Position numbers and translations under genes: made by a program
Part shown: piece by piece, positions 3,809-63,495 of the stretch
Layout of the letters: each line of letters begins with the position of its first letter
Numbering within the stretch: position 1 is the first letter of the stretch
Notes under the pieces: generated by a model
Told to the model about the DNA's origin: nothing
The model's database searches: none
The model's input: the letters and a program-made list of their open reading frames with translations, nothing else
From: a virus
Direction: 5' to 3' (one strand)
IMG/VR virus record: IMGVR_UViG_3300028883_000032
Coordinates: 142,857-206,856 of that record
Length of the DNA: 64,000 bases

Positions 3809-4037
3809 TAAATTCATAGTTGTCTTGTTTAAAACAGAATATAGTTTTACTGTGCATGTTAACAAAGACTTTTTTACAGTTAGTTTTGAATGGGAATCTA
3901 AATATATTGATTGCTTCAAAGGGTATGACAATATTGTAGGGGTTGAATTAAATTTTAAGAACAGGTATTTCTCCGCATATTGTCATATAAAAAACAAAAT
4001 TTATAGCTTCACTTTTCCCCAAAATAATGAGGAATAA
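3801..4037 (+). CDS. intron-encoded hypothetical protein, 78 aa
   Basis: ATG 3801 is chosen over an in-frame ATG at 3741 that lies deep in the previous gene. The sequence is rich in Phe, Tyr and Val in alternating patterns and is probably all beta. No family recognised. It lies within the group I intron insert. Confidence 0.45.
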   Translation: MYSKFIVVLFKTEYSFTVHVNKDFFTVSFEWESKYIDCFKGYDNIVGVELNFKNRYFSAYCHIKNKIYSFTFPQNNEE

Positions 4038-4069
4038 GATAGTAACCATAAAACTAACTGGGGTAAAAC

Positions 4070-6715: not shown

Positions 6716-6724
6716 TGGAATAAG
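6716..6724 (+). promoter_or_regulatory. TGGNATAAGA-class phage promoter
   Basis: TGGAATAAG followed by A, directly after the ligase stop codon. It is one of about ten near-identical intergenic copies in the window. It would start transcription near 6731, at the 5' end of a small structured RNA. Confidence 0.6.
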
Positions 6725-6730
6725 AACACA

Positions 6731-7846: not shown

Positions 7847-7884
7847 TTGACAATTCTTATTCTATGTTGTATATTTGGAATAAG
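7847..7884 (+). promoter_or_regulatory. tandem promoter of the tmRNA
   Basis: TTGACA (7847-7852), 17-nt spacer, TATATT (7870-7875), followed at once by TGG (7876-7878), giving a TAnnTTTG-like -7 box. The phage motif TGGAATAAG overlaps at 7876-7884. Both promoter classes would therefore feed the tmRNA gene, one for the host enzyme and one presumably for the phage enzyme. Confidence 0.7.
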
Positions 7885-7947
7885 AATGTGACTAGGTGGT
7901 ACAGGACCTACCTACCACCGATATCATTTTTGTAGCCACTCCAGTCT

Positions 7948-8310
7948 GGGCTCGACTGGAATCGACGGGTGGATATTGAGAATTGGTTGCGTTACTAGTC
8001 CTGTCAAGGACGATAATCCATGACAATCGATAACTGGCGAAACTCCAGTCCTTAAGGCTGCCTAATCCTTCGGGATTATGCACATAAAAGCCACGTTGAC
8101 CGAATCCGATTCCCGTTAGGGTTCGAATCAACGTCGAAAATACGGGATGCTGTCTTACAGGCCTCGCTATAAGACATAAGATTTAGAGGATGGGTAGGGG
8201 TGATGAAAGTCTGGTGCCTGATCCCCGCCGAGATGAAATATCCAGACTAGGTAACGTAGACGCTAATTCTTGAGCCTCTCCGGACCCGGGTTCGAATCCC
8301 GGCGAGTCCA
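7948..8310 (+). ncRNA. ssrA: transfer-messenger RNA (tmRNA)
   Basis: The 5' end GGGCTCG (7948-7954) pairs with CGAGTCC (8303-8309) as the acceptor stem. CTGGAATCGACGGG follows, as in bacterial tmRNAs, and the 3' end has the T arm CCGGG-TTCGAAT-CCCGG. The tag frame GGC...TAA at 8036-8065 reads GETPVLKAA, followed by a CTAATCC-TTCG-GGATTA-type hairpin. CCA is not encoded (ACTA). It rescues stalled ribosomes and tags their products. The Gly start of the tag resembles Bacteroidota tmRNAs. Confidence 0.92.
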
Positions 8311-8312
8311 CT

Positions 8313-9911: not shown

Positions 9912-9920
9912 TGGAATAAG
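9912..9920 (+). promoter_or_regulatory. TGGNATAAGA-class phage promoter upstream of cold-shock gene
   Basis: TTTTGGAATAAGA directly after a terminator. The leader of ~70 nt that follows has complementary GTTG/CAAC and TTGGC/GCCAA segments, so it is structured, as leaders of cold-shock genes often are. Confidence 0.6.
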
Positions 9921-9995
9921 AAAATAATAAGTTGTTGGTAAAAAGCTTGGCATCGGAAGGCCAACACCAACGATAAGTTTTCACGAGGAGGTGTA

Positions 9996-10758: not shown

Positions 10759-10773
10759 CAGGTAGCTTTTTTT
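10747..10773. terminator. bidirectional terminator between convergent genes
   Basis: AGCTACC (10748-10754), loop, GGTAGCT (10761-10767) and seven T on the + strand. The NYN gene ends within it and the RNA polymerase gene ends at 10772 from the other side. The minus-strand T-run is weak. Confidence 0.8.
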
Positions 10774-13700
10774 ACCAGAATACTCCCTTTTCAGGATCAA
10801 ACTGTGTAGCAAACTCGTTTGCATATAAGTATGCTGGCATGGGGTCATAGCCGTGTATATTTGTTTTGCTTGCTTTTGCTGCAGAGTCTTGAATAACCAT
10901 TTTGATGTTATTACTAGTAACACGGCTTAACCAGTCGTCCCGTTCATGTGGTAAAACATTTATACTCTTGAAATAAGGTTTATATTCTATTTGTGGAAGC
11001 CCTTCTGCTTTTCTCTCTTTATTTTCCTTATCAACTACAGTTTTAAAAACTGTATCCCCCTTTATAAACCTTGAGTTATCTGGAGCATTTGTAATATAAG
11101 CGTTATCGCTTATACCCCTGATTATAGTTTCGAATGTACGCTTGTGGAATTTTCCGTCGTAAACGTTATCCATCCTATCCACAAGAGATTTTTGAGCAGT
11201 AATGAAGTCTGTTAATTCCGCTAATTCTTGCGGTTTTTTTGTACCAGTACTTATAGGTTCTCCACGAGTAACTATATCGTCTATTTTAACCAGCAAGTCT
11301 CTTCCTGGTTTTACGTGGTGAAGTTTTGGACTATTACCATCTCCCATAATGGCAACTTCCCAACCTCCCGCCATTCCGGGTTTTATATTTATTACCCTAC
11401 CTTCTATTTGTGCAAGTTCCGCTTTTCCTGGTAAAATTGCCGGGACCTTTACAGTACGCTCTAATTCTGGGAATCCCGCTGTCACTCCTCCACCGGCTAG
11501 AGCGCTTCCCCCAGAGTGGAAAGTTTGCATGGTCAATTGTGTTGCTCTTTCAGATACAGCCTGTCCGTCTAAAACTCCAGCATTATAACCAATTTGTGGC
11601 AATTTTCCTTCAGGGGTTAGCCCATAACAAAAAGCACACATACCTCGTTCTGTTTCACAAGTTAGAGGGCTTCTAACCTTTATTAAACTGTTACCCAGTT
11701 TTTTAACCAAGTCAGGGTGGATTAAAGCCGTAATAGTATCCCCTACTTCTACCACTCCCGGCACTCTTTGCTGGCTTATACGCCCTATAACGTTTTTGTC
11801 ACTAGCAGATAACTCTATTCCATTTGTTGTACCACAATCTTGTTCGGTTATAAGCACGTCCTTCAGATTAGTTAAAAGCGCCTTATTTAAGGCACCAGTA
11901 TCTTGTGTGTTTACGGCGCGATCAACGGTGCCTTTTCTTGCAGAATACATGTGGTTCCAGAATGAAAAGTCGTCTACTCCCTCTGCCCAGGATTTTTCAA
12001 CAGGAGTGGGGATTGGGCGCCCCTTAACATCCAAAAGAACCCCAGGCATGGTTAGTACTTGCCTAATACTGTCTGGTTTTCCCTGTGATCCAGAATCAAG
12101 CATGTGGAAAAACCTATTATCGCTTTTACGCGCATTTTCATATAATTCTTTTTGAACTTTCTTGGAAGCTTCGTTATATATTTCAGCACGTTCCAGTGGA
12201 GTTTGGACACGGTTTGCTTTTTTGTGAGCAATTTCCATAATAGGACCACGAGCACTACGGTCCATATCCAAGTCCGTTATACTCAAAGTTATAGGTTTAC
12301 GATAAGAGTATTCTTTTCCAAGCTCTTTAAAGTGGTTCATCACCTCAGCAAACTTTTTAGGATGCCTATCGCTTATTTCCTTCATTATACGCTTAACCGT
12401 GTCAGCATCAAATACTAATGTTCTGTCTTTTAAGTCCTCCGGAAGCTTTTCTAAAACAAGCTCCTTACCGTAAGTTGTACGCCCTACTCCTGTTAATTCA
12501 ACTTCCTCCGCTTCGTCAAGTTTGCCGTCTCTAACATCATCAGCCATTTTTTTGAATGTGCTATATTTTTTGCCATCATATTTTCTATCCACTTTTGTAA
12601 GATACCAAAGACCTTGTTGAAATATTTGACTAAATGAGCCAATGATGGGCATAACAGGATCATCAAAATGGGGCCCATGTTGATAAATGTTTTTAGAAGG
12701 AATCATGCCAAACGCTTCACGAACGGCATCAGTGGATACAGGCACATTAACTGACATGGCGTCACCGTCAAAGTCCGCATTAAAACCCTTAACAATAAGA
12801 GGATTTAATTTAATAGCTTGGCCATCAATGCGCTTTGGTATTGCAGCTTGTACACTATGTTTATGTAACGATGGAGCACGATTAAGTAGTACTGGTCTGT
12901 TCTCCATGGCCAAGTCTATTCCACGCAGGCCAAGTTCTGTTTCTTCTTGAATTTCCTTACGTGCAGTCAGGGGACTGTGACCACGTTTGGTCAGCTCCTG
13001 TACGGCAAATGGAAGATAAATTTCTTTTGCCATTCCTGTGGGAATTCCTACCTCGTCTACTCCCAAGTTTGGATCAAGTGTAATGGTGCTGCGAGCAGAA
13101 AGATCCTGTCGTTTGCTCCAGACATTACTTTGTATAAAACCTTCTTTAGGTTCGGACCCAGATAGTGTGCGTAAGGCCCCCTCGTATTTTTCTTTCCCAA
13201 AGTGGGTTAGTTCTGTTAATCCCTGTAACTCCTTAAAATGATCGTAAAGCGACTTACGCACTTCATCAACTTTTATTTTCTCTGTGCCAATTTCCTTATC
13301 GCTAGCTAGGCCATCGTTAAGTTTCGATATGTCCCTATAATGATAATTAATTGGACTTACCATTAAATCACCGGAAGGTAATGGGTAAACTGGCCTAAAT
13401 ACTGGAGGCATGACTGGAATTTTATTTGTGGTATAGGCTTCTTCCGCTGTCATTCCTAGTTTATCTAGAGCTTCTAAGTATCGTACGCGCTTATTAAGTT
13501 TATTTACGCGTGACTCCGGTGCGGTTTTTAATTCATTTTTTGATTCCTGTAATTCTTTTTTTACATCTATAGCACGTAGGTCAGTAATTATTTTATCTAT
13601 TCCACCCTCTTCCCCTTTAAGGCGCGCCTCATACTGAGGGCGGGTAATACCAAGCAATGATTGGATTGCTTTTTCATACATTGGAGAAGGCATGGTATCA

Positions 13701-16700
13701 GTTAATTCTATGTGGCTCCATTTTGTACCTCCATGTCCTCCGGTAATTTTTGAGTCAAACAACCCGCCTTTTAAAGTTGCTAAATTTTTACCCATTAGCA
13801 TTTGTCCGGCATCGTCTAATTTACCGGCACTAATTTCAGATATTTTTTTATCCGTCAAAGGCATTAACTGAATTTCATTACCCTTTTTTTCACTATCAAC
13901 CCCGGCGGCCTTCATGTAGGCTACCATTTTATCAAATACAAAAGATTTTTGGGGAGTTGGTAGTGGCAAACCTAATTGTATTGCTCTCCACAGCTCATCA
14001 TTCTTTTGTGATTTTATAGCAGTGAAATCTCTTAAATTGTGTTTTGCACCATGCGCTAGGAGAACATATGTTTGCATAGGATCGACGGATTGTCCCCCAG
14101 ACTCTCCTCTACCGGGAGCCTCATTTACATTGTAGGAACCATAACTACGGCTTTTTTCTTTATGTTCAACCACATGCATTAGTTTTAGTATGTACTGAGG
14201 ACCAGTAAATACTTTCGATTTAAGAGGCTTACCGTCTTTGCCATCTAATACCACCTCGTCAGGTTCAATTCCTTGTTTTTTAAGTTCGTTAAGGAGTATG
14301 TTTAATTTGTCCTTACCATCGAAATTACGAATGACGTAAGGTTTACCTGTTTTTTCAGCAATTTTAGCCGCTGCTGTTTCTAACAATTGTGAGGGATTCA
14401 TTCTAGAAGGTATTCCAAACGGAGACATTATCATGTCTACACGCTTACCACTAGCGGTATGTGGAGCCTCCTCGTCAGGTATGATCTTAACAACAATCCC
14501 TTTACCACCGTATCTGTTGGCTAGTTTGTCTCCCTCCACTAATGGGTGACTTACTTTCACACGAACTACAATTTTACGGCCCATTTTAGAAACATACATT
14601 ACTTCCCCGGGCTCATCAAAATCATATACAACACTCCGGTCGTCATATAATTTAGACACCTTACGGTTCATATTCTTTAGTATTCTCTGTTCGTCGGTCA
14701 TTTCTCTTGGTTCAAGGTGTGCTATGAGTACATCACCCTTTTTAACTCTTTCACCTTCTTTTATAATTCCTTCCGAATCAAGTTTATTATAACTTCCAGT
14801 ATTTATAAAGGCACCTGGATATTCAGCGGCAAGCTTATCCTTATTAAAAATACCATTAGTGGTTCTATGCGAAGTATAATTGTGCAGACTAGAATGTGTA
14901 AACTTTTTAGCAAACGAATCTGTTACCACCAACCCGTCTTCAAATGAATAGCCCTTGTAAGGCATATAAGCTACTTGGACATTTGCGCCAAGACCTAATG
15001 TCTTTTTTCCACCAAAAGGTGGCTCAGCTTCAAAGTTATTTTTTGCTAATTCTTGTTTGGCCTTAACTACATCACCCGGTTTAACAGTAGGAGTACTGTG
15101 CAAGAACGACTCTTGGTTCATTGGAAAATAGTTATACAGCCCTATTTTAAGGCTTTTTGACTCCCCTTCAGGTTTTATATGAATGTAGTCAGGTGTTACT
15201 TTAGTTACAACACCTGATTTAATGTCGTCGGGAACATATGGATTAAGATAGTCACCAATCGACTCATCAAAACTTTTATCGATTAATGGCCGACCAACTT
15301 GTACTAGAGGAGCTTCCCCATTATCAATGGTAAAAGCTTGTGAAGTGTTTTTAGCAGCCATTAGTGCCCTGTTTCCTTGGGTATGTTCTAAAAATGGCGT
15401 TAAGTTTGTTGGCCACCCAAACAGAGATTGAGGTTTAATGATGTAGCCATCAACATCTTTATGGGCAAAAACTTCTGCTTTTCCCTTATTATATCCCCGT
15501 ATTACCCTTTTTGTAAAGTCCCCGTCATGTGGTATTGGTTTTCCATTTTTTAAGACATACTGCTCACCAAAACCAACTCTCATGTTCCACAACTCATGCG
15601 GAGAGACGTACTTAATATCACCGTCTTTCATAATTACGGGAGTTGTCATCTGTCCTTTACTGTTTTTTTCAACAAACAGACTCAAAGGAAGAGAAATCCC
15701 CACTTTGGAACTATCCGGAGTTTGTACAGGATCAAGAAATCCAATATGAGACGGATGGACGTTACGGGTTTCCATGGTTACCTCATGCATGGAAGGTATT
15801 CCTCCCGTACCTAATACTGAAGTTTTTCTCCATTCTGATAATATTGAGACTGGGTTCGTTTGAGGAGGTGTCGCACTAAGGTCACTTGTAGTAAAGAAAC
15901 TTTTTATGGGCTTACTATAAGTATCTGGACTTATAATATCCCTAATCTGATCCTTTCTGTCCGTACGGAAACGTAAATTACCTGTAATTTGTTTGTCCTT
16001 TTTTTCAAGAAAGAACCCGAGTAGATCATCCACAGTCATGAGGGACTTAAATACTAGCGAGTCACGCTCATCAGGATCTGCATCACCGCGTTGGACAGCC
16101 AGTAACTTTTTACTAACATCCATTAACGTATCTTTATTAACTTTTTTGTGTGATGCACCCAAAGTTATCAGTGTTGTATCTGGGTCGACTGCGGTTGTCT
16201 CAAAGTACTCATATAACATCTTTTTTGCTTCTTGTGGGGTTTTTGGTTTTTGATGTAAAACCTTTTCCACAAGGTTGACCCACATATCGGGCTCTTCTCC
16301 TTTATCGCTATTTTTGGCATAAAGGTCCTTGCCCCACAACTCAAGCATTTCTTGGTCTGTTACACCCAACGCCTTAAGAATGTTGTACAGTCTATAATTT
16401 TGATTCCCAGCACGCAATAGAAAAATTCCTTTTGTCGGGTCTAAAGTAAGTTTAAAATTAAAACCCTTTGCAAGATTAAATTGGGATTCAAAGTCACCAT
16501 TATCTTTCATGCGTGTATATATACCAGACTTAAGGCGCAACTGATTTGTTGTTTGGTATTCATTGCCGTCAATAATAGCACTAAATCTTTGTGTTTGTTT
16601 AGGTATATTGGCTATTTTTATTTTAGGTTTTTCATCAACAATGTCCCCTGTTTTTTTGTCGACAAGTCTTAAATGTCCGTAAACTGGAACAGACCAAGTA

Positions 16701-16912
16701 CTACCACTAACTTTGGCTTTCTTTTGGGCTGGAAGATCGTTTGTGGGGGCGTCCTCGTCCCCTATGTCCAAACTAATCAATTCCAATTTTTTATTTTGTG
16801 CATCAATGGGGTATTGATTGGATATAAAATTACCAATTACATCATAAATTTTAGAATTTTGAACATTAGGATTTAATGAGTCTTTTAATTCTCTGTCTGC
16901 ATTCCTCATCAT
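10772..16912 (-). CDS. single-chain fused RNA polymerase beta-beta' subunit, 2046 aa
   Basis: One uninterrupted frame holds both large subunits. The beta-like part (~1-1010) contains PFLEHTQGNRALM, MPYKGYSFEDG (650-660), a GDKLANRYGGKGIV segment, PFGIPSRMNPSQLLET and the C-terminal GSYNVNEAP...GESGGQ region. The beta'-like part (~1060-2046) has PVMPPVFRPVYPL, the catalytic NADFDGDAM (1378-1386, three Asp bind Mg2+), bridge-helix SARKG (1657-1661), the zinc cysteines C1693, C1752, C1759, C1762 and QLTMQTFHSGG. It is about 700 residues shorter than E. coli beta plus beta'; the beta' N-terminal zinc site is not seen. No alpha or omega gene is present here. The start is preceded by GGGAGAA. It presumably transcribes phage promoters with the sigma factor encoded at 41250-42002. 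Confidence 0.95.
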   Translation of the reverse strand: MMRNADRELKDSLNPNVQNSKIYDVIGNFISNQYPIDAQNKKLELISLDIGDEDAPTNDLPAQKKAKVSGSTWSVPVYGHLRLVDKKTGDIVDEKPKIKIANIPKQTQRFSAIIDGNEYQTTNQLRLKSGIYTRMKDNGDFESQFNLAKGFNFKLTLDPTKGIFLLRAGNQNYRLYNILKALGVTDQEMLELWGKDLYAKNSDKGEEPDMWVNLVEKVLHQKPKTPQEAKKMLYEYFETTAVDPDTTLITLGASHKKVNKDTLMDVSKKLLAVQRGDADPDERDSLVFKSLMTVDDLLGFFLEKKDKQITGNLRFRTDRKDQIRDIISPDTYSKPIKSFFTTSDLSATPPQTNPVSILSEWRKTSVLGTGGIPSMHEVTMETRNVHPSHIGFLDPVQTPDSSKVGISLPLSLFVEKNSKGQMTTPVIMKDGDIKYVSPHELWNMRVGFGEQYVLKNGKPIPHDGDFTKRVIRGYNKGKAEVFAHKDVDGYIIKPQSLFGWPTNLTPFLEHTQGNRALMAAKNTSQAFTIDNGEAPLVQVGRPLIDKSFDESIGDYLNPYVPDDIKSGVVTKVTPDYIHIKPEGESKSLKIGLYNYFPMNQESFLHSTPTVKPGDVVKAKQELAKNNFEAEPPFGGKKTLGLGANVQVAYMPYKGYSFEDGLVVTDSFAKKFTHSSLHNYTSHRTTNGIFNKDKLAAEYPGAFINTGSYNKLDSEGIIKEGERVKKGDVLIAHLEPREMTDEQRILKNMNRKVSKLYDDRSVVYDFDEPGEVMYVSKMGRKIVVRVKVSHPLVEGDKLANRYGGKGIVVKIIPDEEAPHTASGKRVDMIMSPFGIPSRMNPSQLLETAAAKIAEKTGKPYVIRNFDGKDKLNILLNELKKQGIEPDEVVLDGKDGKPLKSKVFTGPQYILKLMHVVEHKEKSRSYGSYNVNEAPGRGESGGQSVDPMQTYVLLAHGAKHNLRDFTAIKSQKNDELWRAIQLGLPLPTPQKSFVFDKMVAYMKAAGVDSEKKGNEIQLMPLTDKKISEISAGKLDDAGQMLMGKNLATLKGGLFDSKITGGHGGTKWSHIELTDTMPSPMYEKAIQSLLGITRPQYEARLKGEEGGIDKIITDLRAIDVKKELQESKNELKTAPESRVNKLNKRVRYLEALDKLGMTAEEAYTTNKIPVMPPVFRPVYPLPSGDLMVSPINYHYRDISKLNDGLASDKEIGTEKIKVDEVRKSLYDHFKELQGLTELTHFGKEKYEGALRTLSGSEPKEGFIQSNVWSKRQDLSARSTITLDPNLGVDEVGIPTGMAKEIYLPFAVQELTKRGHSPLTARKEIQEETELGLRGIDLAMENRPVLLNRAPSLHKHSVQAAIPKRIDGQAIKLNPLIVKGFNADFDGDAMSVNVPVSTDAVREAFGMIPSKNIYQHGPHFDDPVMPIIGSFSQIFQQGLWYLTKVDRKYDGKKYSTFKKMADDVRDGKLDEAEEVELTGVGRTTYGKELVLEKLPEDLKDRTLVFDADTVKRIMKEISDRHPKKFAEVMNHFKELGKEYSYRKPITLSITDLDMDRSARGPIMEIAHKKANRVQTPLERAEIYNEASKKVQKELYENARKSDNRFFHMLDSGSQGKPDSIRQVLTMPGVLLDVKGRPIPTPVEKSWAEGVDDFSFWNHMYSARKGTVDRAVNTQDTGALNKALLTNLKDVLITEQDCGTTNGIELSASDKNVIGRISQQRVPGVVEVGDTITALIHPDLVKKLGNSLIKVRSPLTCETERGMCAFCYGLTPEGKLPQIGYNAGVLDGQAVSERATQLTMQTFHSGGSALAGGGVTAGFPELERTVKVPAILPGKAELAQIEGRVINIKPGMAGGWEVAIMGDGNSPKLHHVKPGRDLLVKIDDIVTRGEPISTGTKKPQELAELTDFITAQKSLVDRMDNVYDGKFHKRTFETIIRGISDNAYITNAPDNSRFIKGDTVFKTVVDKENKERKAEGLPQIEYKPYFKSINVLPHERDDWLSRVTSNNIKMVIQDSAAKASKTNIHGYDPMPAYLYANEFATQFDPEKGVFW

Positions 16913-16926
16913 TTCTCCCGGATTTT

Positions 16927-16935
16927 TGGAATAAG
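16927..16935 (+). promoter_or_regulatory. TGGNATAAGA-class phage promoter
   Basis: TTTTTGGAATAAGAAT, 14 bases beyond the start of the divergent RNA polymerase gene. It leads a ~90-nt leader with two small hairpins (GGCTT/AAGCC and GAGGG/CCCTC) before the next gene. Confidence 0.6.
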
Positions 16936-17026
16936 AATATACATAAGGCTTTCAAATTCGAGCATTGGAAGCCCGCTTTGGGAGGGGGTATTGCCCTCTT
17001 CATAATATACAACACAGGAGGGGTTA

Positions 17027-17668: not shown

Positions 17669-17680
17669 TGGTATAAGATT
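17669..17680 (+). promoter_or_regulatory. TGGNATAAGA-class promoter of the large structured RNA
   Basis: TGGTATAAGATT, best match to the motif. The predicted start of transcription (~17684) coincides with the first strand of the stem that closes the 5' domain of the large RNA, which supports both assignments. Confidence 0.7.
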
Positions 17681-18520: not shown

Positions 18521-19450
18521 ATGACTAAACAATCTATAAGCATATATAGTGTCCTTGATAAATCTCAAGAATATATAGAAGATATTATCTCTAACAAAGA
18601 AAAGCATTATATTACTTTTAGAATACCAAAACGTAATGGGCGTTTTCGTAAAATAGAGGCTCCTGACGACGCCTTAAAAGAGTTACAAACCACAATAAAC
18701 GAAAAAGTATTTTCTATTTATAAACCCCATCGTATAGCGCACGGATTTATTTCTAATAGATCGCCGAAAACAAATGCGGAAGCGCATGTGGGGGCAAAAA
18801 TAATCGTGGAAGTGGATATAAAGGATTTTTTCCCATCCATTAAAAAAGACAGGGTTATTAAAGTACTTGAGTACTTATTTGTTCAAAAAGCTGGAATGTT
18901 TAAATCTTCCGCCCATAAGCAGGAAGCAATAAAAGTCATATCAGAATTAATTACTCACCATGATAGGCTACCCCAAGGAGCCCCAACTAGTCCACCGTTT
19001 AGTAATCTATCGGTGCTAGGAATGGATAAAGACTTATTAAAATTAGAAGAGCCTTATGGTGCAACCGTAACTAGATACGCAGATGATATCACAATGTCAT
19101 CAGAATACAATGTACAATTGCCACAAGTTATCCCGGAATTACGTAAAATAGTGACCAAATATGGGTTTAAATTAAACAACGTTAAGACTCGAGTTATTCG
19201 ACAAAATCGTAGGATGTTGGTAACTGGAGTAGTAGTTAACGAAAAACCGAACATTAGAAAGGATGTTCGACGTAGTTTAAGAGCTAAATTACATAATTAC
19301 AATAGGGATCACACCCCTATCACCCAAGAAGAATACCAACGTATTCAGGGGCAAATTGCTTGGATTAAGTATTTAAACCCTCTCCATGGAGATAGGCTCG
19401 GAGAACAATTGGACCGCGTTCAACGAGAAGAACCCACAGTAGTCTTATAG
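18521..19450 (+). CDS. retron-type reverse transcriptase, 309 aa
   Basis: Catalytic YADD at residues 186-189, VEVDIKDFFPSI (first catalytic Asp) near 105-116, and LPQGAPTSPPFSNL near 147-160. The retron hallmarks are both present: NAEAH (NAxxH, 85-89) in region X and VTG (234-236) in region Y. The length matches stand-alone retron RTs. It would reverse transcribe part of a cognate structured RNA, expected directly upstream where the large RNA lies. AACCAA lies nine nt before ATG; there is no Shine-Dalgarno. Retrons serve as abortive-infection systems; in a phage it may act against competing phages. Confidence 0.92.
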   Translation: MTKQSISIYSVLDKSQEYIEDIISNKEKHYITFRIPKRNGRFRKIEAPDDALKELQTTINEKVFSIYKPHRIAHGFISNRSPKTNAEAHVGAKIIVEVDIKDFFPSIKKDRVIKVLEYLFVQKAGMFKSSAHKQEAIKVISELITHHDRLPQGAPTSPPFSNLSVLGMDKDLLKLEEPYGATVTRYADDITMSSEYNVQLPQVIPELRKIVTKYGFKLNNVKTRVIRQNRRMLVTGVVVNEKPNIRKDVRRSLRAKLHNYNRDHTPITQEEYQRIQGQIAWIKYLNPLHGDRLGEQLDRVQREEPTVVL

Positions 19451-19787: not shown

Positions 19788-19796
19788 TGGCATAAG
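19788..19796 (+). promoter_or_regulatory. TGGNATAAGA-class promoter of the cloverleaf RNA
   Basis: TTGGCATAAGAAT immediately after the preceding stop codon. Transcription would start near 19803 and run to the T-run at 20072-20077. Confidence 0.55.
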
Positions 19797-19802
19797 AATA
19801 TG

Positions 19803-22343: not shown

Positions 22344-22365
22344 TTTAAGGTATAAGAATTTGTGT

Positions 22366-22391: not shown

Positions 22392-22400
22392 CGGTATAAG
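22392..22400 (+). promoter_or_regulatory. TGGNATAAGA-like promoter (CGGTATAAG)
   Basis: Directly after the terminator T-run; one mismatch at the first base of the motif. Drives the two zinc-protein genes and probably the structured RNA at 22993. Confidence 0.5.
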
Positions 22401-22434
22401 ATTGTATCTTATACATTTACTTCTTGGAGGTCAG

Positions 22435-23553: not shown

Positions 23554-25437
23554 TTACGGATTACCTTTTTTAGGGGCCGTATGTTTTTCTTGTTTAGCTT
23601 TAGCCACTTGTGCGTTAGCTTTTTGTTGATCTATGTCTTGCTTACGGGACTGCTGTTCAGCTTCTATCATTTCTGGCATTGCGGCCATCATTGCATTTTG
23701 TATCATTTGTGCACGCTTCATAACAGCAGATGCAAAGTAAGGAGCACTTTTCTGCATATTTACAACAACTTGCTGTTGTTGTTTTGGTGGCATCGCGATT
23801 AATTGCAAAGCATATTTATGTATAATTTCACTAGTATCCTCGCTTGTATTTCCGGTTTCAATTTTTGTCATTTCTTCTGCCAGCTCTTCATCTATCATCT
23901 TTTCGTCGATTCTTGCTTTCTCATCAAGATACGCCCACTCTGCTCCAGCTTGTGCCCTCCCTTGTTCAATGAAGCCAATTGAAGCTGCGGCAGCATCGCC
24001 CTCCGCCACTTTTGATTTTAGCTTATTTTCAAATTCAATGTCTTTTTCTTTTCTATCTCTATCTTTATCAGGATCAATACCAAATTCTTGTAGAAGAGCA
24101 GTATTGGATATTTTCCCGGCCTCGTTAAGTTCAAAATGAAGTCTCTTCGATTCAGAATCATCGTTCATTTTAAATTTTGTCATTCTTAAACTAATTTTAT
24201 TGTAGCTGAGAATCGCAGCTAGTCTTGGAATGAGAAATTGATTTATGAAATCATGTAAATCTTCACGGTAGGCAATAAAGTCGTTTTCAACAATACGCAA
24301 GGATATACTAGACCCTGTCCATGAAGCTCCCCCTTTAACAAATTCAATAGGAACACCAAAGGAGTTAATAACAGTTTCCTCCAAAAATTTCATTTCAGGG
24401 GTGGTCATTAAAGCTCTGGCATCTCCTCCAAGAGACTGATATCCAATTGGTATTGGGAAAATTCCTATATGGTTAGGGTCCCTTTTCCATTTCTTTATCT
24501 GCTCTTCAATTTGACTTCTCCACTCACCAAGGTTCATTCCTATAATTGGGTTATCTGAACCATTGCTGGCTGGGAATAGAGCTCGTAAAGGAACAACGTG
24601 TTCCATAGCTATCGCTTCATTACCGCGACGCAAAGTTTGCATGTAGTAAATAAGTCCAAGAGCGGGGAGAATCATTGGTTTCCCCCACGCCTCGTCGTCT
24701 TCGCTTAGTGTTGGTTGCTTGAAATGGTAAATATTTTTTGGGTCTAGTTGTATTTTCTTATTAGCCTCTATTGCCTTGATGAATAACCAAGGGGTTTTAT
24801 CTACTATTGGTATGGTTCCTTTTTTTACGTCTGCCTTTAATTCCGGTTTAACATTATAAAAATAGTCGGCTTCTCCTGTAAACTCATCATAATCAATTTC
24901 AATTCTTTCTGGCGCCAAAGCGACAACTTTTACAGAATCTGCTGTTTTTTGTGGAACATCATCCACACCAAACTCGTTAATCTGGGCTTTACATTTAGGG
25001 CAAGTCCCCGAATACTTAAATTGCCTAAATTTACGATCCTTTATTGAATGGAGTTGGTGCTTTTCTCCGCACGATGAGCATGTTAACCATCGTTTAAATT
25101 TAAGGTTAAGGAGTACAATACAGTTTCCAAACACCATAAAATCCAATCCAATTTTTTTCAATAGGGATTTTAGTTTGATTTCAAATTTTAAAAGATTCTC
25201 CCAATTCTCTTTTTCTTCTTGATCTGCGTATTTTTCTATTATTGGTTGTGTAATTGGATAACTTACCATTTTTCCTATTACACTTCTTAAAAATTCATTC
25301 CTATAAAAGAAAATTCTACAATGTTTAAAGAGAGTTTTAATATTCTTTGGCATATATGTTCGAGACATATCAAAGAATGGGCTAGGATATTTGTTACTGC
25401 TGTTTGATGATTTATCTATAAAATAACTAGTTGACAT
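23554..25437 (-). CDS. portal protein with inserted zinc ribbon, 627 aa
   Basis: Portal-like features: an N-terminal FRNEFLRSVIGKMVSYPI region, the VPIEFVKGGASWTGSS segment with a following helix typical of the portal crown/stem, and a long Gln/Ala-rich helical C-terminus. It forms the dodecameric DNA channel between head and tail. CSSCG (near 120-124) and CPKC (near 147-150) form a zinc ribbon inserted in the N-terminal wing, which is not usual for portals. The assignment rests on pattern recognition. Confidence 0.72.
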   Translation of the reverse strand: MSTSYFIDKSSNSSNKYPSPFFDMSRTYMPKNIKTLFKHCRIFFYRNEFLRSVIGKMVSYPITQPIIEKYADQEEKENWENLLKFEIKLKSLLKKIGLDFMVFGNCIVLLNLKFKRWLTCSSCGEKHQLHSIKDRKFRQFKYSGTCPKCKAQINEFGVDDVPQKTADSVKVVALAPERIEIDYDEFTGEADYFYNVKPELKADVKKGTIPIVDKTPWLFIKAIEANKKIQLDPKNIYHFKQPTLSEDDEAWGKPMILPALGLIYYMQTLRRGNEAIAMEHVVPLRALFPASNGSDNPIIGMNLGEWRSQIEEQIKKWKRDPNHIGIFPIPIGYQSLGGDARALMTTPEMKFLEETVINSFGVPIEFVKGGASWTGSSISLRIVENDFIAYREDLHDFINQFLIPRLAAILSYNKISLRMTKFKMNDDSESKRLHFELNEAGKISNTALLQEFGIDPDKDRDRKEKDIEFENKLKSKVAEGDAAAASIGFIEQGRAQAGAEWAYLDEKARIDEKMIDEELAEEMTKIETGNTSEDTSEIIHKYALQLIAMPPKQQQQVVVNMQKSAPYFASAVMKRAQMIQNAMMAAMPEMIEAEQQSRKQDIDQQKANAQVAKAKQEKHTAPKKGNP

Positions 25438-39288: not shown

Positions 39289-41250
39289 TTACGCCAATTC
39301 CGGTGTGTTTGCTAACCAAGGTGATACAGAATCCTCATTACTATCTTCAGAAAATTCAAAACCGGCATTTGGGTCTTCATCTGAAGTAAAAGACTCATTA
39401 ATAGCAGTAGCCCTGTTTGATGCCAACTCATCTTGTTGTGCTAGCGCAACATTTTCTACTTCTGGAGTATGGTCTGCCATTTGCGATGCCGCTGCCTGAC
39501 TTTTATTTCTAGAAGATAAATAGCATGTCGCATCAGCGGCAGCTTCCCCTATACTAACAATTTGGCCAGCTAGAGACATAGAAGCGGACATTACATTTAC
39601 AGCGGTTCCAATAGCATTTCCCAAATCTCCGCTTGAAATAAATTTACCAACAGAACCTCCCATGCTTTCTAAAAATGCAATTGCTTCTCGTATTAGGGGG
39701 CTGTTTTCATCGAACTTATTCAAATAACTTAAAGTAACCTTATCTTGATTAATTCCGGCTTCTATAACCCTTCTTAAATCTGACATCCTAACGACAGCAT
39801 TTATTAGGGCTTGTTTTCCCAGCCCTTCTGTCACATTACCTTTTACATTTGATACTACTGTGGATATTAAGTCTATTATTGAACTTAAAAACATTGCTTT
39901 AAGAACATGATAATTATTATCAAAATCGTTTTGCGACTGCAAATACTTAATTATTTCTTTAAATTGCGCAGCTTGCTCTTGCACCGCAGCAAGATCGGCT
40001 GCCGCTGCACCGATAAACCCACCACTTTGTCCTGTTTGCCATATAGCTTCTAAAGCAATAGTCCACCCTGGAATAGCTAAAGCAGCCTCTGTCTTTTTAG
40101 GGGGTACAGATTCTGTTTTATCTTCCATCTCTTCTCTAACGTCTTTTACTGTTCCTCTTTCTCTAATAATGAAGTTAAGTAACAAATTCATTGTTGTGCT
40201 TAATCCACTAATTGTGGCATCAAGGTTTTTCATAGAGTTTAATGTTAAGTTAACAGCTACGCCTTGGGCTTCCAAACTTGGCTCGCGGGTTTCTACTGTA
40301 ATTTCGTTTAATTTATATTCTCCAGTATCCGTGATTGTCCAACTTTTGCCACCGCTTGCAAATTGCCATGTACCATCAGAAAAAAACGACTGAACTGACA
40401 TATCAGGATTTGATGGTCTGTCAACAGTTAGTTTCAATAGGTTAATAACGTCTGGAGTGGGAGTAACGCGATATGTTGCTCCTAAAGCTGCCAATCCCAT
40501 CAATTTTACTGTGTCATTTAGTCTCCTAATATATTGTTTATAGTGCTCGTCTAGGAATTTTTTAGTATATGCCCAGTTTGTTTTTATATTTGGGTCTCCC
40601 TCGTCGTTATCTGTAAATTCATTAAAACCGCTCTTTAGAGTTCCTTGTATGGTATCTCCGCCCGTTTGTGTGCGTGCCCTACCTGTCCCGCCATTAAGAA
40701 AGTCAATGGCTGAACTTACATTATCCATTGCGCTACTGTGCAAACTCGAAGCAAAAATACCGGTTGTGCGAGCTCTCTCGTATACGGCCGAAATTGTTTT
40801 TTCTGCCGATTTAAGTTTTCTCTCAGCAGCTCTTACGCGATCAATAATGTTGGTTGCCCCATCAAAGGTTCCAAGATAGGCTAATTCACTTAATGCCCCT
40901 ATTAGTGCATTCACCATTACAATTGCATCTTCCGCCGTGCTAATTCTTTGTTGTACCTGTTGCTTCGCAACTCGGTTAGCTAGTGCAAATAATGCTAATT
41001 TCATTTGTGGTAACAAAGTCATGGCCATAGCAAACATTGCAACCCCTCCGGATATTATTTGGCCTAATCCGGTTTCTGTTAAAACTGTTTGTATAGCTTG
41101 AGATAGTAAAGTAGATGCAGCACTAGAAAGTAGACCCAACAGAGCTTCAACTCCTAACCACCCATTATCAGCAGCATTCGCTAAAAGGGAAGCTTCTCTA
41201 TCACTCATGTACTCTGCATATCTCTGATTTAATCTGTCTTGGCAGGACAT
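39289..41250 (-). CDS. large helical virion protein, 653 aa
   Basis: Ala/Ser/Leu-rich helices with long hydrophobic stretches near 30-95 and 540-580, and an acidic Ser/Glu-rich C-terminal tail. Such proteins are often tail-tube lumen, internal or ejected proteins. No domain recognised. One-base overlap with the sigma factor gene. Confidence 0.5.
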   Translation of the reverse strand: MSCQDRLNQRYAEYMSDREASLLANAADNGWLGVEALLGLLSSAASTLLSQAIQTVLTETGLGQIISGGVAMFAMAMTLLPQMKLALFALANRVAKQQVQQRISTAEDAIVMVNALIGALSELAYLGTFDGATNIIDRVRAAERKLKSAEKTISAVYERARTTGIFASSLHSSAMDNVSSAIDFLNGGTGRARTQTGGDTIQGTLKSGFNEFTDNDEGDPNIKTNWAYTKKFLDEHYKQYIRRLNDTVKLMGLAALGATYRVTPTPDVINLLKLTVDRPSNPDMSVQSFFSDGTWQFASGGKSWTITDTGEYKLNEITVETREPSLEAQGVAVNLTLNSMKNLDATISGLSTTMNLLLNFIIRERGTVKDVREEMEDKTESVPPKKTEAALAIPGWTIALEAIWQTGQSGGFIGAAAADLAAVQEQAAQFKEIIKYLQSQNDFDNNYHVLKAMFLSSIIDLISTVVSNVKGNVTEGLGKQALINAVVRMSDLRRVIEAGINQDKVTLSYLNKFDENSPLIREAIAFLESMGGSVGKFISSGDLGNAIGTAVNVMSASMSLAGQIVSIGEAAADATCYLSSRNKSQAAASQMADHTPEVENVALAQQDELASNRATAINESFTSDEDPNAGFEFSEDSNEDSVSPWLANTPELA

Positions 41251-42002
41251 TAAAAGTATTCCATATGGTTTTCTACATCAACAGCTATTTGACTTCGTAT
41301 TTTTCGTACTTGCGATTCAGGCATGTTCAGTCTGTCTGCTATTTCAGCGGTCGTCAATTGTGGATTACCTCCCCAACCAAAGGTATACTCCATTATTTTC
41401 TTTGTTTTATTGGGGGCCGTGTGATAAATAAGTCTAGCTATTTCCAGAGCTTTATTTTTAGAATGAAATCCTGCATCAAAGAAAGAACTGGTATCTTCTT
41501 TTCCGGTTCCTATGCTCAAATCTTGCCTTAATTCGGCATTCATTCTTTCGACTTCTTTCGGGGACCAAGCCAAGGCGTCAGCTATTTCGTAAGTTGTTGG
41601 AGGCCTGTTTAACTCATCTTCTAGATTTGATTTAATGTTCTGAAATCTAGAAATTGCAATCCCACGATGTTCAGGTATTTTTCCGACATTTTGATATTGC
41701 AAAACGTATCTTTGAAGATGCTTTAAGTGATTAGTTACGTGTGTATTTAAAGCTGCACCTTTATTAGGATCGTAGGTATCAAAACTTTTTACTGTAAGTC
41801 TTCTCGCCTCTGATTCTAATGCAGGTCTTGGTAATGGCGCACCAGTAAATTTATTTACATTACTTTGTATAACAGGATCGAGGCTTTTTAATAGATAAGG
41901 CACAACGGCTTTATCACCCATATGATACTGCTTCCAGAGATCAACTTCGCGTTCTTTGAGCTGGGATCTAGACAGATCCACCGGTATTTGAAAGCTCTTC
42001 AT
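41250..42002 (-). CDS. sigma-70-family RNA polymerase sigma factor, 250 aa
   Basis: Region 2 lies in about residues 38-110 (LKSLDPVIQSNVNKF...YDPNKGAALNTHVTNHLKHLQRYV), region 3 in ~112-165 (ISRFQNIKSNLEDELNRPPT followed by YEIADALAWSPKEVERM), and a region 4 helix-turn-helix in ~215-240 (LTTAEIADRLNMPESQVRKI). ATG 42002 is preferred (AAGGAA ten bases upstream) over ATG 42023. It overlaps the preceding virion gene by 35 nt. It is the only sigma-like protein in the window and the obvious partner of the fused RNA polymerase. Position among tail genes implies late synthesis. Confidence 0.85.
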   Translation of the reverse strand: MKSFQIPVDLSRSQLKEREVDLWKQYHMGDKAVVPYLLKSLDPVIQSNVNKFTGAPLPRPALESEARRLTVKSFDTYDPNKGAALNTHVTNHLKHLQRYVLQYQNVGKIPEHRGIAISRFQNIKSNLEDELNRPPTTYEIADALAWSPKEVERMNAELRQDLSIGTGKEDTSSFFDAGFHSKNKALEIARLIYHTAPNKTKKIMEYTFGWGGNPQLTTAEIADRLNMPESQVRKIRSQIAVDVENHMEYF

Positions 42003-42870
42003 AAATTCTATTTCCTTCATCAATGGCCGCAGTTATATCTTCAAGATATGCTGCTTGTAGGTCTTCATTTTCAAAAATAGTTTCTCCGCCGCTTGTAAAC
42101 GTGGAGGAAACGACCTGTCTCCAATTAGATGTCAGTTCTGCTGACTGTTTTTCTAAATATGTAATCTGCGCATCATACCCTATTATACTATGTATCAATT
42201 GGTTTATTAATTGCGCATCCTGTTGTCCTTTACTTTTCTCTTCTTGCAGCCTATCGTCTTCCTCCGCCCTAGCTTTAATAATATCAGGAAGTAACAAATC
42301 CTTTGAGACATCAATACCAAATTGGTACATCATGTATAATTTTTCATTATGCAGTACTTTATGTTTTGTAACAATCATTTGCATATTGAAAGACGATGTG
42401 TGAGGAGAAGCAGCAACCTTGTTAATACTAAAATTAGTTGGGTAGAAATAAATTAAGTTCTCCCCTACTACTAATATAGCAATTTTTTTCTTTCTTGCAA
42501 GTTGTGTTCCACGTAAATGTTTATCCCAAAACTCTCTCCACATGGATTCCCACCTATATTTATTATGCGGTTTAGCTTCAAGAAGTGTTCCCGACAACCC
42601 ATAAACTTTTGTTTTCTCATCAAAGAAAGATAATACAGATGTGCCACTAAATGTTTCCATAACTTGAACCTTCTCTATATGCGTTTCTTGAAATTGCTGC
42701 AAAATAAAATGGTCAGTTAGGAGGATTTCAGTAGATGGCATGTCCTCTGTTACAAAAGCAGGATTTGGTACTACCAGTATCATAGCTGGTTTTTTTATCA
42801 AAGATATATTGGATAATGAAGGTTTGGAATCCCACCCATCTTGAATTGAACTTAATGGTAGGTTAGACAT
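41968..42870 (-). CDS. tail/baseplate protein, 300 aa
   Basis: Alpha/beta N-terminal ~190 residues, including VYGLSGTLLEAKPHNKYRWESMWREFWDKH, then a helical charged region. Eight-base overlap with the hub-like gene. Several contractile-tail phages have a similar-size protein between hub and wedge. The exact role is not known. Confidence 0.5.
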   Translation of the reverse strand: MSNLPLSSIQDGWDSKPSLSNISLIKKPAMILVVPNPAFVTEDMPSTEILLTDHFILQQFQETHIEKVQVMETFSGTSVLSFFDEKTKVYGLSGTLLEAKPHNKYRWESMWREFWDKHLRGTQLARKKKIAILVVGENLIYFYPTNFSINKVAASPHTSSFNMQMIVTKHKVLHNEKLYMMYQFGIDVSKDLLLPDIIKARAEEDDRLQEEKSKGQQDAQLINQLIHSIIGYDAQITYLEKQSAELTSNWRQVVSSTFTSGGETIFENEDLQAAYLEDITAAIDEGNRIYEELSNTGGSV

Positions 42871-48658: not shown

Positions 48659-48667
48659 TGGTATAAG
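48659..48667 (+). promoter_or_regulatory. TGGNATAAGA-class promoter of RNase H operon
   Basis: TTTTTGGTATAAGATT; the ATG of RNase H begins at 48673, so the predicted start of transcription falls on or next to the start codon and the mRNA would be leaderless. Confidence 0.6.
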
Positions 48668-48672
48668 ATTAC

Positions 48673-58736: not shown

Positions 58737-59032
58737 GTAGTAAAGTAGTAAAACGGTAGTATTTCGAGGGTTTGCAACTTACTGTAAATCCTCGATTTAT
58801 TTTGTAGTTACTACTTTACTACCAAAACTACTTTAAAAATATGTAGAGTCTGTGGAATAAGAGTATGCAATTAGGTTTACTGGTACACAACTCACGCGAG
58901 TATATAAAAATAGTAGTAGTAAAGTAGTAAAGTAGTAAGTAGTAGTATAAGTATATATAATATAATATATTAACCCCCTAAATTTTTACTACCTTTTATA
59001 CCGAAAATACTACCTTACTACCTTCAACCTAA
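58737..59032. repeat. iteron-rich AT-rich region, candidate replication origin
   Basis: About 320 nt without a gene. GTAGTAAA-type units are repeated at 58737-58761 and 58911-58947 and inverted (TTACTACTTTACTACC) at 58808-58822 and again as ACTACC units at 58988-59032. Between them lies a run of ATATAATATAAT (58948-58972), a likely easily melted segment. A phage promoter motif lies at 58853. Position directly after the primase-helicase supports an origin. Confidence 0.65.
58853..58861 (+). promoter_or_regulatory. TGGNATAAGA-class promoter inside the origin candidate
   Basis: GTGGAATAAGAGT. It would transcribe through the distal iterons and AT-rich segment toward the next gene, possibly activating or priming the origin. 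Confidence 0.5.
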
Positions 59033-63463: not shown

Positions 63464-63472
63464 TGGAATAAG
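63464..63472 (+). promoter_or_regulatory. TGGNATAAGA-class phage promoter
   Basis: TTTTATGGAATAAGAT immediately after the sRNA terminator, 24 bases before the next ATG. Confidence 0.6.
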
Positions 63473-63495
63473 ATCAAGACTAACCATTTAATCCA

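Follow-up and report, generated by a model that had tools for sequence, protein, structure and literature searches.

To our knowledge, every cellular RNA polymerase (RNAP) joins its two catalytic subunits, beta and beta', via alpha or an equivalent. Positions 142,857 to 206,856 of the IMG/VR virus record IMGVR_UViG_3300028883_000032, the final 64 kb of a record of 206,856 bp and in the following called the window (64,000 nucleotides), carry a single minus-strand gene that encodes both subunits in one protein. What kind of enzyme is encoded here, can it do without alpha, and at which stage of infection does it act? We consider it probable that the gene specifies an alpha-independent, single-chain, sigma-directed polymerase which is packaged into the virion for early transcription.

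The gene forms an uninterrupted frame of 2046 amino acids from ATG to TAA (coordinates of all features are given in Table 1). Along the chain, Pfam reports RNA_pol_Rpb2_3, Rpb2_6 (1.2e-62), Rpb1_1, Rpb1_2, Rpb1_4 and Rpb1_5 in this order. All catalytic landmarks could be located by comparison with E. coli RpoB and RpoC, including GYSFEDG of beta (residues 654-660), PFGIPSRMN, the lid and switch 2, and the lysines K796 and K804, which correspond to K1065 and K1073 of E. coli beta. Both lysines as well as D1380, D1382 and D1384 are invariant across 80 aligned full-length sequences. The equipment of a cellular-type RNAP, i.e., both double-psi barrels, DxDGD, the two lysines, bridge helix and trigger loop, is present. 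The zinc-2 site (Cys 1693/1752/1759/1762) is retained in 76-77 of the 80 sequences. The beta' N-terminal zinc-binding domain, the loss of which had been noted in the first-pass annotation, is reduced to a few residues and is absent from the window chain and from all 80 aligned sequences; the flap tip is slightly shorter than in E. coli. Beta ends at about residue 1012 and beta' starts at about residue 1018, and thus the chain has no linker. The stretch around this junction (residues 1004-1021) comprises 18 residues in 80 out of 80 sequences.

Structure prediction by AlphaFold2, based on 61 sequences, was applied to residues 560-1700 as one chain. This segment takes in the barrel and flap of beta, the junction, and the N-terminal part, barrel and bridge helix of beta'; the model has a predicted local distance difference test score (pLDDT) of 87.6 and a predicted template modelling score of 0.82. 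When it was compared with the PDB by Foldseek, beta' chains of bacteria ranked first (E about 1e-40). Judging from sequence, it is close to certain that one polypeptide comprises a DNA-dependent RNA polymerase of the beta/beta' kind which is complete and apparently intact, as the first-pass annotation had claimed.

The alpha N-terminal domain (PF01000) was found neither in the 206,856-bp record nor in 33 related contigs. The same 33 contigs and Vibrio phage D69 also yielded no omega (PF01192); the window record itself was not part of this second search. The controls responded in both cases. Within this scope, the separate alpha dimer and the omega of cellular RNAP are missing, and the earlier remark that neither subunit is visible holds for alpha in the record and for both in the relatives. 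The covalent link between beta and beta' would replace the assembly platform that alpha (and omega) provide, and we infer that the enzyme works without host alpha.

Two sigma factors, overlooked at first reading, are encoded by the phage. The more canonical one, 267 amino acids long, is located at record position 67465-68268 among plus-strand genes and comprises regions 1.2-4. The other, divergent one shows 36% identity to Gp10 of Salmonella phage Arash. Pfam recognizes Sigma70_r3 above the cut-off (3.7e-11), region 4 just under the cut-off, and no region 2. In structure comparison, its AlphaFold2 model (pLDDT 88) retrieved bacterial sigma factors at 7e-10. Domain matches and predicted fold together assign this product to the Sigma-70 family. 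It occurs in 22 of the 33 RNAP contigs (weakly in G016) and in D69. A search for the divergent sigma yielded 57 contigs, and RNAP was present in 24 of the 26 large ones tested; the strong matches among 50,697 phage records are exactly D69, D181, D148 and Arash, all of them RNAP carriers. An iterated hidden Markov model merged both sigma types and was left out of these counts, and what looked like sigma fusions in L294 and L320 was rejected as spurious GC-rich frames. The polymerase chain keeps the clamp helices and would bind one of the phage's own sigmas, with the divergent one as the most likely partner. The suggestion of a minimal, alpha-independent multisubunit-type enzyme, made in the first-pass annotation, therefore needs to be split: a compact, alpha-less chain of this type was found, while "minimal" is incomplete in view of two sigma-70-type factors and a repeated promoter-like motif.

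This motif, TGG(A/C/T)ATAAGA, often followed by TA, is enriched in upstream regions of the window genome. Over the whole genome, TGGNATAAGA has 29 sites on the plus strand and none on the minus strand; within the window, GGHATAAGA has 13 sites, all on the plus strand, against 2.1 expected. The sites avoid open reading frames (8 out of 31 inside, 84% expected), and those located close to a start have a median distance of 41 nt from it. The plus strand carries replication genes and a transfer-messenger RNA (tmRNA), the minus strand RNAP, the divergent sigma and the structural genes. The motif was also observed in G010, G034, G053, G054, G055 and Arash, confined, or nearly so, to the strand opposite RNAP. 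A family-wide role of TGGTATAAG was rejected, since it occurs in some of the subclades only.

A second promoter class beside TGGNATAAGA is represented by sigma70-like boxes of the form TTGACA/T-N17-TATATT or similar, which precede minus-strand operons at record positions 88248, 91251, 98475 and 110562. One TTGACA-N17-TATATT also stands immediately before the candidate phage promoter 7877..7885(+), and directly behind this promoter lies the phage tmRNA (window 7948-8311(+), tag GETPVLKAA).

A role in the particle is suggested by published mass spectrometry of virion preparations of the distant relative Arash. Gp206, a fusion of beta with the N-terminal part of beta' (beta-beta'N), is the most-detected protein in Arash particles with 3516 spectra and 128 unique peptides, above the capsid protein (PMC10585845). 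Also detected were Gp216, the beta' C-terminal piece (1210 spectra), the adjacent helicase Gp217 (1148 spectra) and the sigma Gp10 (467 spectra, 24 peptides), and the virion account makes no mention of the second Arash sigma, Gp196 (PMC10585845). Early transcription or carry-over was suggested by the authors (PMC10585845). A homologue of Gp217 is present in the window record.

By analogy with these relatives, and from the strand pattern, the window enzyme would be packaged, pair with the divergent sigma and use the motif described above. The divergent sigma would be produced along with the tail proteins and enter the particle together with the polymerase, and the holoenzyme would be assembled late. 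Once injected, it would initiate on the opposite strand, that of the early genes, at TGG(A/C/T)ATAAGA promoters, either ahead of the host RNA polymerase or alongside it.

Several points weigh against this picture. The Arash virion list is long, comprising 116 proteins including metabolic enzymes (PMC10585845), and carry-over from the lysate is therefore a real concern. Furthermore, the Arash enzyme consists of two chains and is only ~31% identical to the window chain. The co-occurrence of sigma and RNAP could stem from a shared core genome rather than from an interaction. Few or no copies of the TGGTATAAG form occur in G004, G012, G019 and G030, which must use another motif. Finally, the candidate motif could be recognized by a sigma of the host or by an activator of the phage.

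Carry-over would be the explanation of the Arash signal if the chain were a non-virion polymerase, made after infection and serving middle or late genes with a phage sigma, early genes being left to host RNAP. Such a division of labour has a precedent in the phiKZ/AR9 phages, whose later genes are transcribed by non-virion RNAPs (PMC7598289). The second, more canonical sigma (regions 1.2-4) among the plus-strand genes would fit, and the TTGACA-N17-TATATT boxes upstream of some minus-strand operons could be read by host RNAP. Nevertheless, we regard this scheme as unlikely, although it is the strongest of the alternatives: Gp206 tops the particle proteins of Arash even above capsid, the second sigma goes unmentioned there (PMC10585845), and the phage motif is confined to the early-type strand with RNAP on the structural one.

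The motif itself raises a different question, namely whether the divergent sigma retargets host RNAP, which then reads TGGNATAAGA, the phage polymerase using another factor or host alpha. Many phages encode sigmas for host RNAP, and the motif looks like an extended -10 (TGnTATAAT). Its final base, however, is G, and the -10 element of sigma70 ends in a near-invariant T, its most conserved base. The motif is common to a Salmonella phage and to environmental phages with this RNAP and sigma, and in Arash both proteins are found in one particle list (PMC10585845). Retargeting of the host enzyme is thus improbable, and a packaged, sigma-directed phage polymerase is the reading that we retain.

Table 1. 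Location of the polymerase gene, its landmarks and associated features in the window
Feature	Position	Strand	Basis or remark
Single-chain RNA polymerase gene, beta then beta'	10772..16912	-	Frame, Pfam, E. coli alignment, at least 105 full-length homologue contigs
Beta half, residues 1-1012	13877..16912	-	E. coli RpoB alignment; Rpb2 domains
Beta/beta' junction, five residues between halves	13862..13876	-	Alignment
Beta' half, residues 1018-2046	10775..13861	-	E. coli RpoC alignment; Rpb1 domains
Active-site lysines K796-K804 of the beta double-psi barrel	14501..14527	-	Invariant in 80-row alignment
Site of missing beta' N-terminal zinc-binding domain, residues ~1058-1063	13724..13741	-	Alignments
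Beta' clamp helices, residues 1187-1232, kept	13217..13354	-	E. coli alignment; sigma region 2 docking element in bacteria
Catalytic NADFDGD, residues 1378-1384	12761..12781	-	E. coli and family alignments
Split point in ~20 relatives, residues ~1465-1478	12479..12520	-	Just past catalytic barrel of beta'; D69, Arash, others
Bridge helix, residues 1649-1689	11846..11968	-	E. coli alignment
Trigger loop region, residues 1778-1805, without SI3 insertion	11498..11581	-	E. coli alignment
Divergent sigma factor, 257 aa, within tail/baseplate operon	41250..42023	-	Sigma70 r3 and r4; homologue of Arash virion protein Gp10
Portal protein homologue	23554..25437	-	Arash gp204, 30%; marker of common phage lineage
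Promoter-like motif, written forms			TGGNATAAGA, TGGTATAAG, GGTATAAG (Arash), TGGAATAAGA
Candidate phage promoter GGAATAAGA	4031..4039	+	
Candidate phage promoter GGAATAAGA	6717..6725	+	
Candidate phage promoter GGAATAAGA	7877..7885	+	Just upstream of phage tmRNA
Candidate phage promoter GGAATAAGA	9913..9921	+	
Candidate phage promoter GGAATAAGA	16928..16936	+	Just outside RNAP start codon, opposite orientation
Candidate phage promoter GGTATAAGA	17670..17678	+	
Candidate phage promoter GGCATAAGA	19789..19797	+	
Candidate phage promoter GGTATAAGA	22349..22357	+	
Candidate phage promoter GGTATAAGA	22393..22401	+	
Candidate phage promoter GGTATAAGA	48660..48668	+	Heads plus-strand genes past structural block
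Candidate phage promoter GGAATAAGA	58854..58862	+	
Candidate phage promoter GGAATAAGA	63465..63473	+	

The search for single-chain relatives covering both subunits was carried out in IMG/VR. With the single protein as query, the scan used poor patterns and gave no match; alignments were used instead, and two alignment-based scans resulted in 158 locus entries before duplicates were removed. At least 105 distinct contigs carry a complete beta-beta' chain in one frame, with lengths of 1974-3192 amino acids (median 2086). Approximately 20 further contigs and the isolates D69 and Arash have the RNAP in two genes. These split relatives encode fused beta-beta'N and are always cut at one later point only, near residues 1410-1480. 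A split at the cellular beta/beta' boundary was not seen in the family, where the ranking may favour long co-linear matches. By sequence comparison, the polymerase is the mark of a widespread phage family and not the singular oddity as which it first appeared.

In Vibrio phage D181 (L007:4459-5408), the fused gene is broken at about residue 510 and adjoins a homing endonuclease gene, an interruption which illustrates one way in which such polymerases can become split. Five of the 105 one-frame contigs (L036, L041, L202, L215 and L253) are whole only if TGA is read through as an amino acid, and no relative with a broken frame is restored by reading through TAG. Four of these, L036, L041, L202 and L253, are among the closest relatives of the window RNAP (44-46%); in the window itself, TGA is a stop.

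Separate trees were calculated for the beta and beta' halves from 36 family members and 27 bacteria, with no archaeal or eukaryotic root. In both, the phage family forms one clade apart from the 27 bacteria with full support. Within the family, 18 of 33 splits are common to both half-trees, compared with a mean of 0.36 after shuffling, and therefore the two halves have travelled together.

These trees bear on a descent from the host, either by recent acquisition of a fused rpoBC or by fusion of adjacent rpoB and rpoC through deletion. Fused rpoBC does exist in some bacteria, and a Woesebacteria (Patescibacteria) contig, L140:7785-14813, encodes beta and beta' in one open reading frame of 2342 amino acids. 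In the beta' tree, this fusion is placed among its bacterial kin, and it is apparently an independent bacterial event. In a GTDB genome scan, the closest bacterial rpoBC among the best 80 matches listed are 26-31% identical to the window chain; these 80 matches contain only bacterial rpoBC and no host or prophage copy of the chain, the absence of which is thereby not proven. Since the family is separated as a clade in both half-trees and identity is this low, a recent copy of a host gene, which the first-pass annotation had considered, is excluded; the zinc domain is, moreover, missing family-wide. We consider any form of this origin very improbable. An artificial join of two genes by sequencing or assembly is of negligible probability: the record is metagenomic and nothing else was found in favour, while at least 105 distinct contigs carry the full chain, the junction length is constant in 80 rows, and beta-beta'N is fused in the isolate genomes Arash and D69.

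A wider evolutionary reading is possible rather than probable. These phages would form a clade with a particle-borne, self-contained holoenzyme, which consists of an alpha/omega-free one-chain core, a dedicated sigma and TGGNATAAGA-type early promoters, and in which the one-chain form predates the split one. With the one-chain form first, fission at the beta' barrel boundary would consequently have given rise to the two-gene enzymes. The split members form one clade in the half-trees, a position which does not alone prove whether the fused or the split state came first.

How does the enzyme relate to known systems? The deep phage lineage was very probably already reported as mReC (multi-subunit RNAP-encoding Caudovirales) by Weinheimer and Aylward in 2020 (PMC7481178), who described metagenomic phage beta and beta' with NADxDGD as one deep clade beside bacteria. 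Our own trees likewise contain phage beta and beta' with NADxDGD as a single clade outside bacteria. Two of the three named mReC example sequences are derived from metagenome 3300017989, which is also the source of the single-chain member L063/L223. The accounts differ in that the main text on mReC treats beta and beta' as two subunits, mentions fusion for crAssphage only, and describes no sigma, promoter or virion role (PMC7481178). The mReC capsid family PF07068 (Gp23-type) was found in 0 out of 35 records, searched by a model without positive control; the mReC paper itself had only 8 capsids (PMC7481178).

Arash, with Gp206, Gp216 and Gp10 (PMC10585845), belongs to the same family at ~31% identity. 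It shares the fusion of beta to the beta' N-terminal part, a homologous divergent sigma, the GGTATAAG motif on the opposite strand, and the lineage of TerL, portal and capsid. It differs in encoding the C-terminal part of beta' in a separate gene ~5 kb away. The text of the Arash paper was not found to mention a fusion or a promoter (PMC10585845).

The virion and non-virion RNAPs of phiKZ and AR9 (PMC7598289, PMC7824862) are likewise phage enzymes of the beta/beta' type, lack alpha and omega, and have a virion form for early genes. They are, however, very divergent, consist of four or five polypeptides, and no sigma has been found; the window phage has one chain from one gene, near-cellular motifs and two sigma factors. 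The contrast to these split enzymes drawn in the first-pass annotation is thus upheld. QDE-1, YonO, gp66 of crAss phi14:2 and gp64/gp96 of P23-45 also unite both barrels in one chain, and some are virion-packaged (PMC10770324). In contrast to the window chain, they constitute a separate, highly divergent clade which, apart from DxDxD, has little sequence similarity to beta/beta' (PMC10770324). The window chain aligns over nearly its full length with bacterial beta/beta', and its Pfam (Rpb1/Rpb2) and PDB matches are bacterial.

Bacterial rpoBC fusions of the Helicobacter/Wolbachia type have the same beta-beta' order and still assemble with alpha; L140 falls inside the bacterial tree, whereas the phage chains lie outside. 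In the open-access literature, we found no report of a family of single-chain beta-beta' enzymes that has its own sigma and promoter, which does not establish priority.

Some entries of phage resources were set aside. Phage records with separate rpoB and rpoC (OR84xxxx, MD-2021a, Salmonella records) were judged to be host contamination or bacterial genes and used as bacteria only. The top PHROG matches, phrog_25354 and phrog_24349, were rejected as kin and are probably contamination, because their lengths fit Firmicutes RpoC/RpoB. These two PHROG families and several OR84xxxx records thus resemble bacterial rpoC/rpoB contamination in phage resources.

If the proposed reading is true, a covalent-fusion enzyme with a near-complete cellular active site and a sigma would provide a minimal model of initiation, potentially with expression from one gene. 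Three questions become testable: the need for alpha in sigma-directed initiation, the viral packaging of a polymerase of ~2000 residues together with a sigma, and the descent of split phage polymerases from fused ones.

Two observations concern inserted and neighbouring elements. A reverse transcriptase gene (RVT_1, 2.5e-23) is located at window 18521-19450(+). The window RNAP gene has no intein-like insert, and inserts of this kind, ~310-535 amino acids long, occur at active-site motifs of the RNAP genes in L041, L042, L060, L065, L072, L079, L091, L219, L228, L246, L250, L256, L257, L264 and L265. In many of them, the first residue is Cys and the last two are GN or HN, followed by Ser. In window numbering, they are found at residues 401, 798, 809, 836, 1386 and 1796-1800, and L265 holds three of them.

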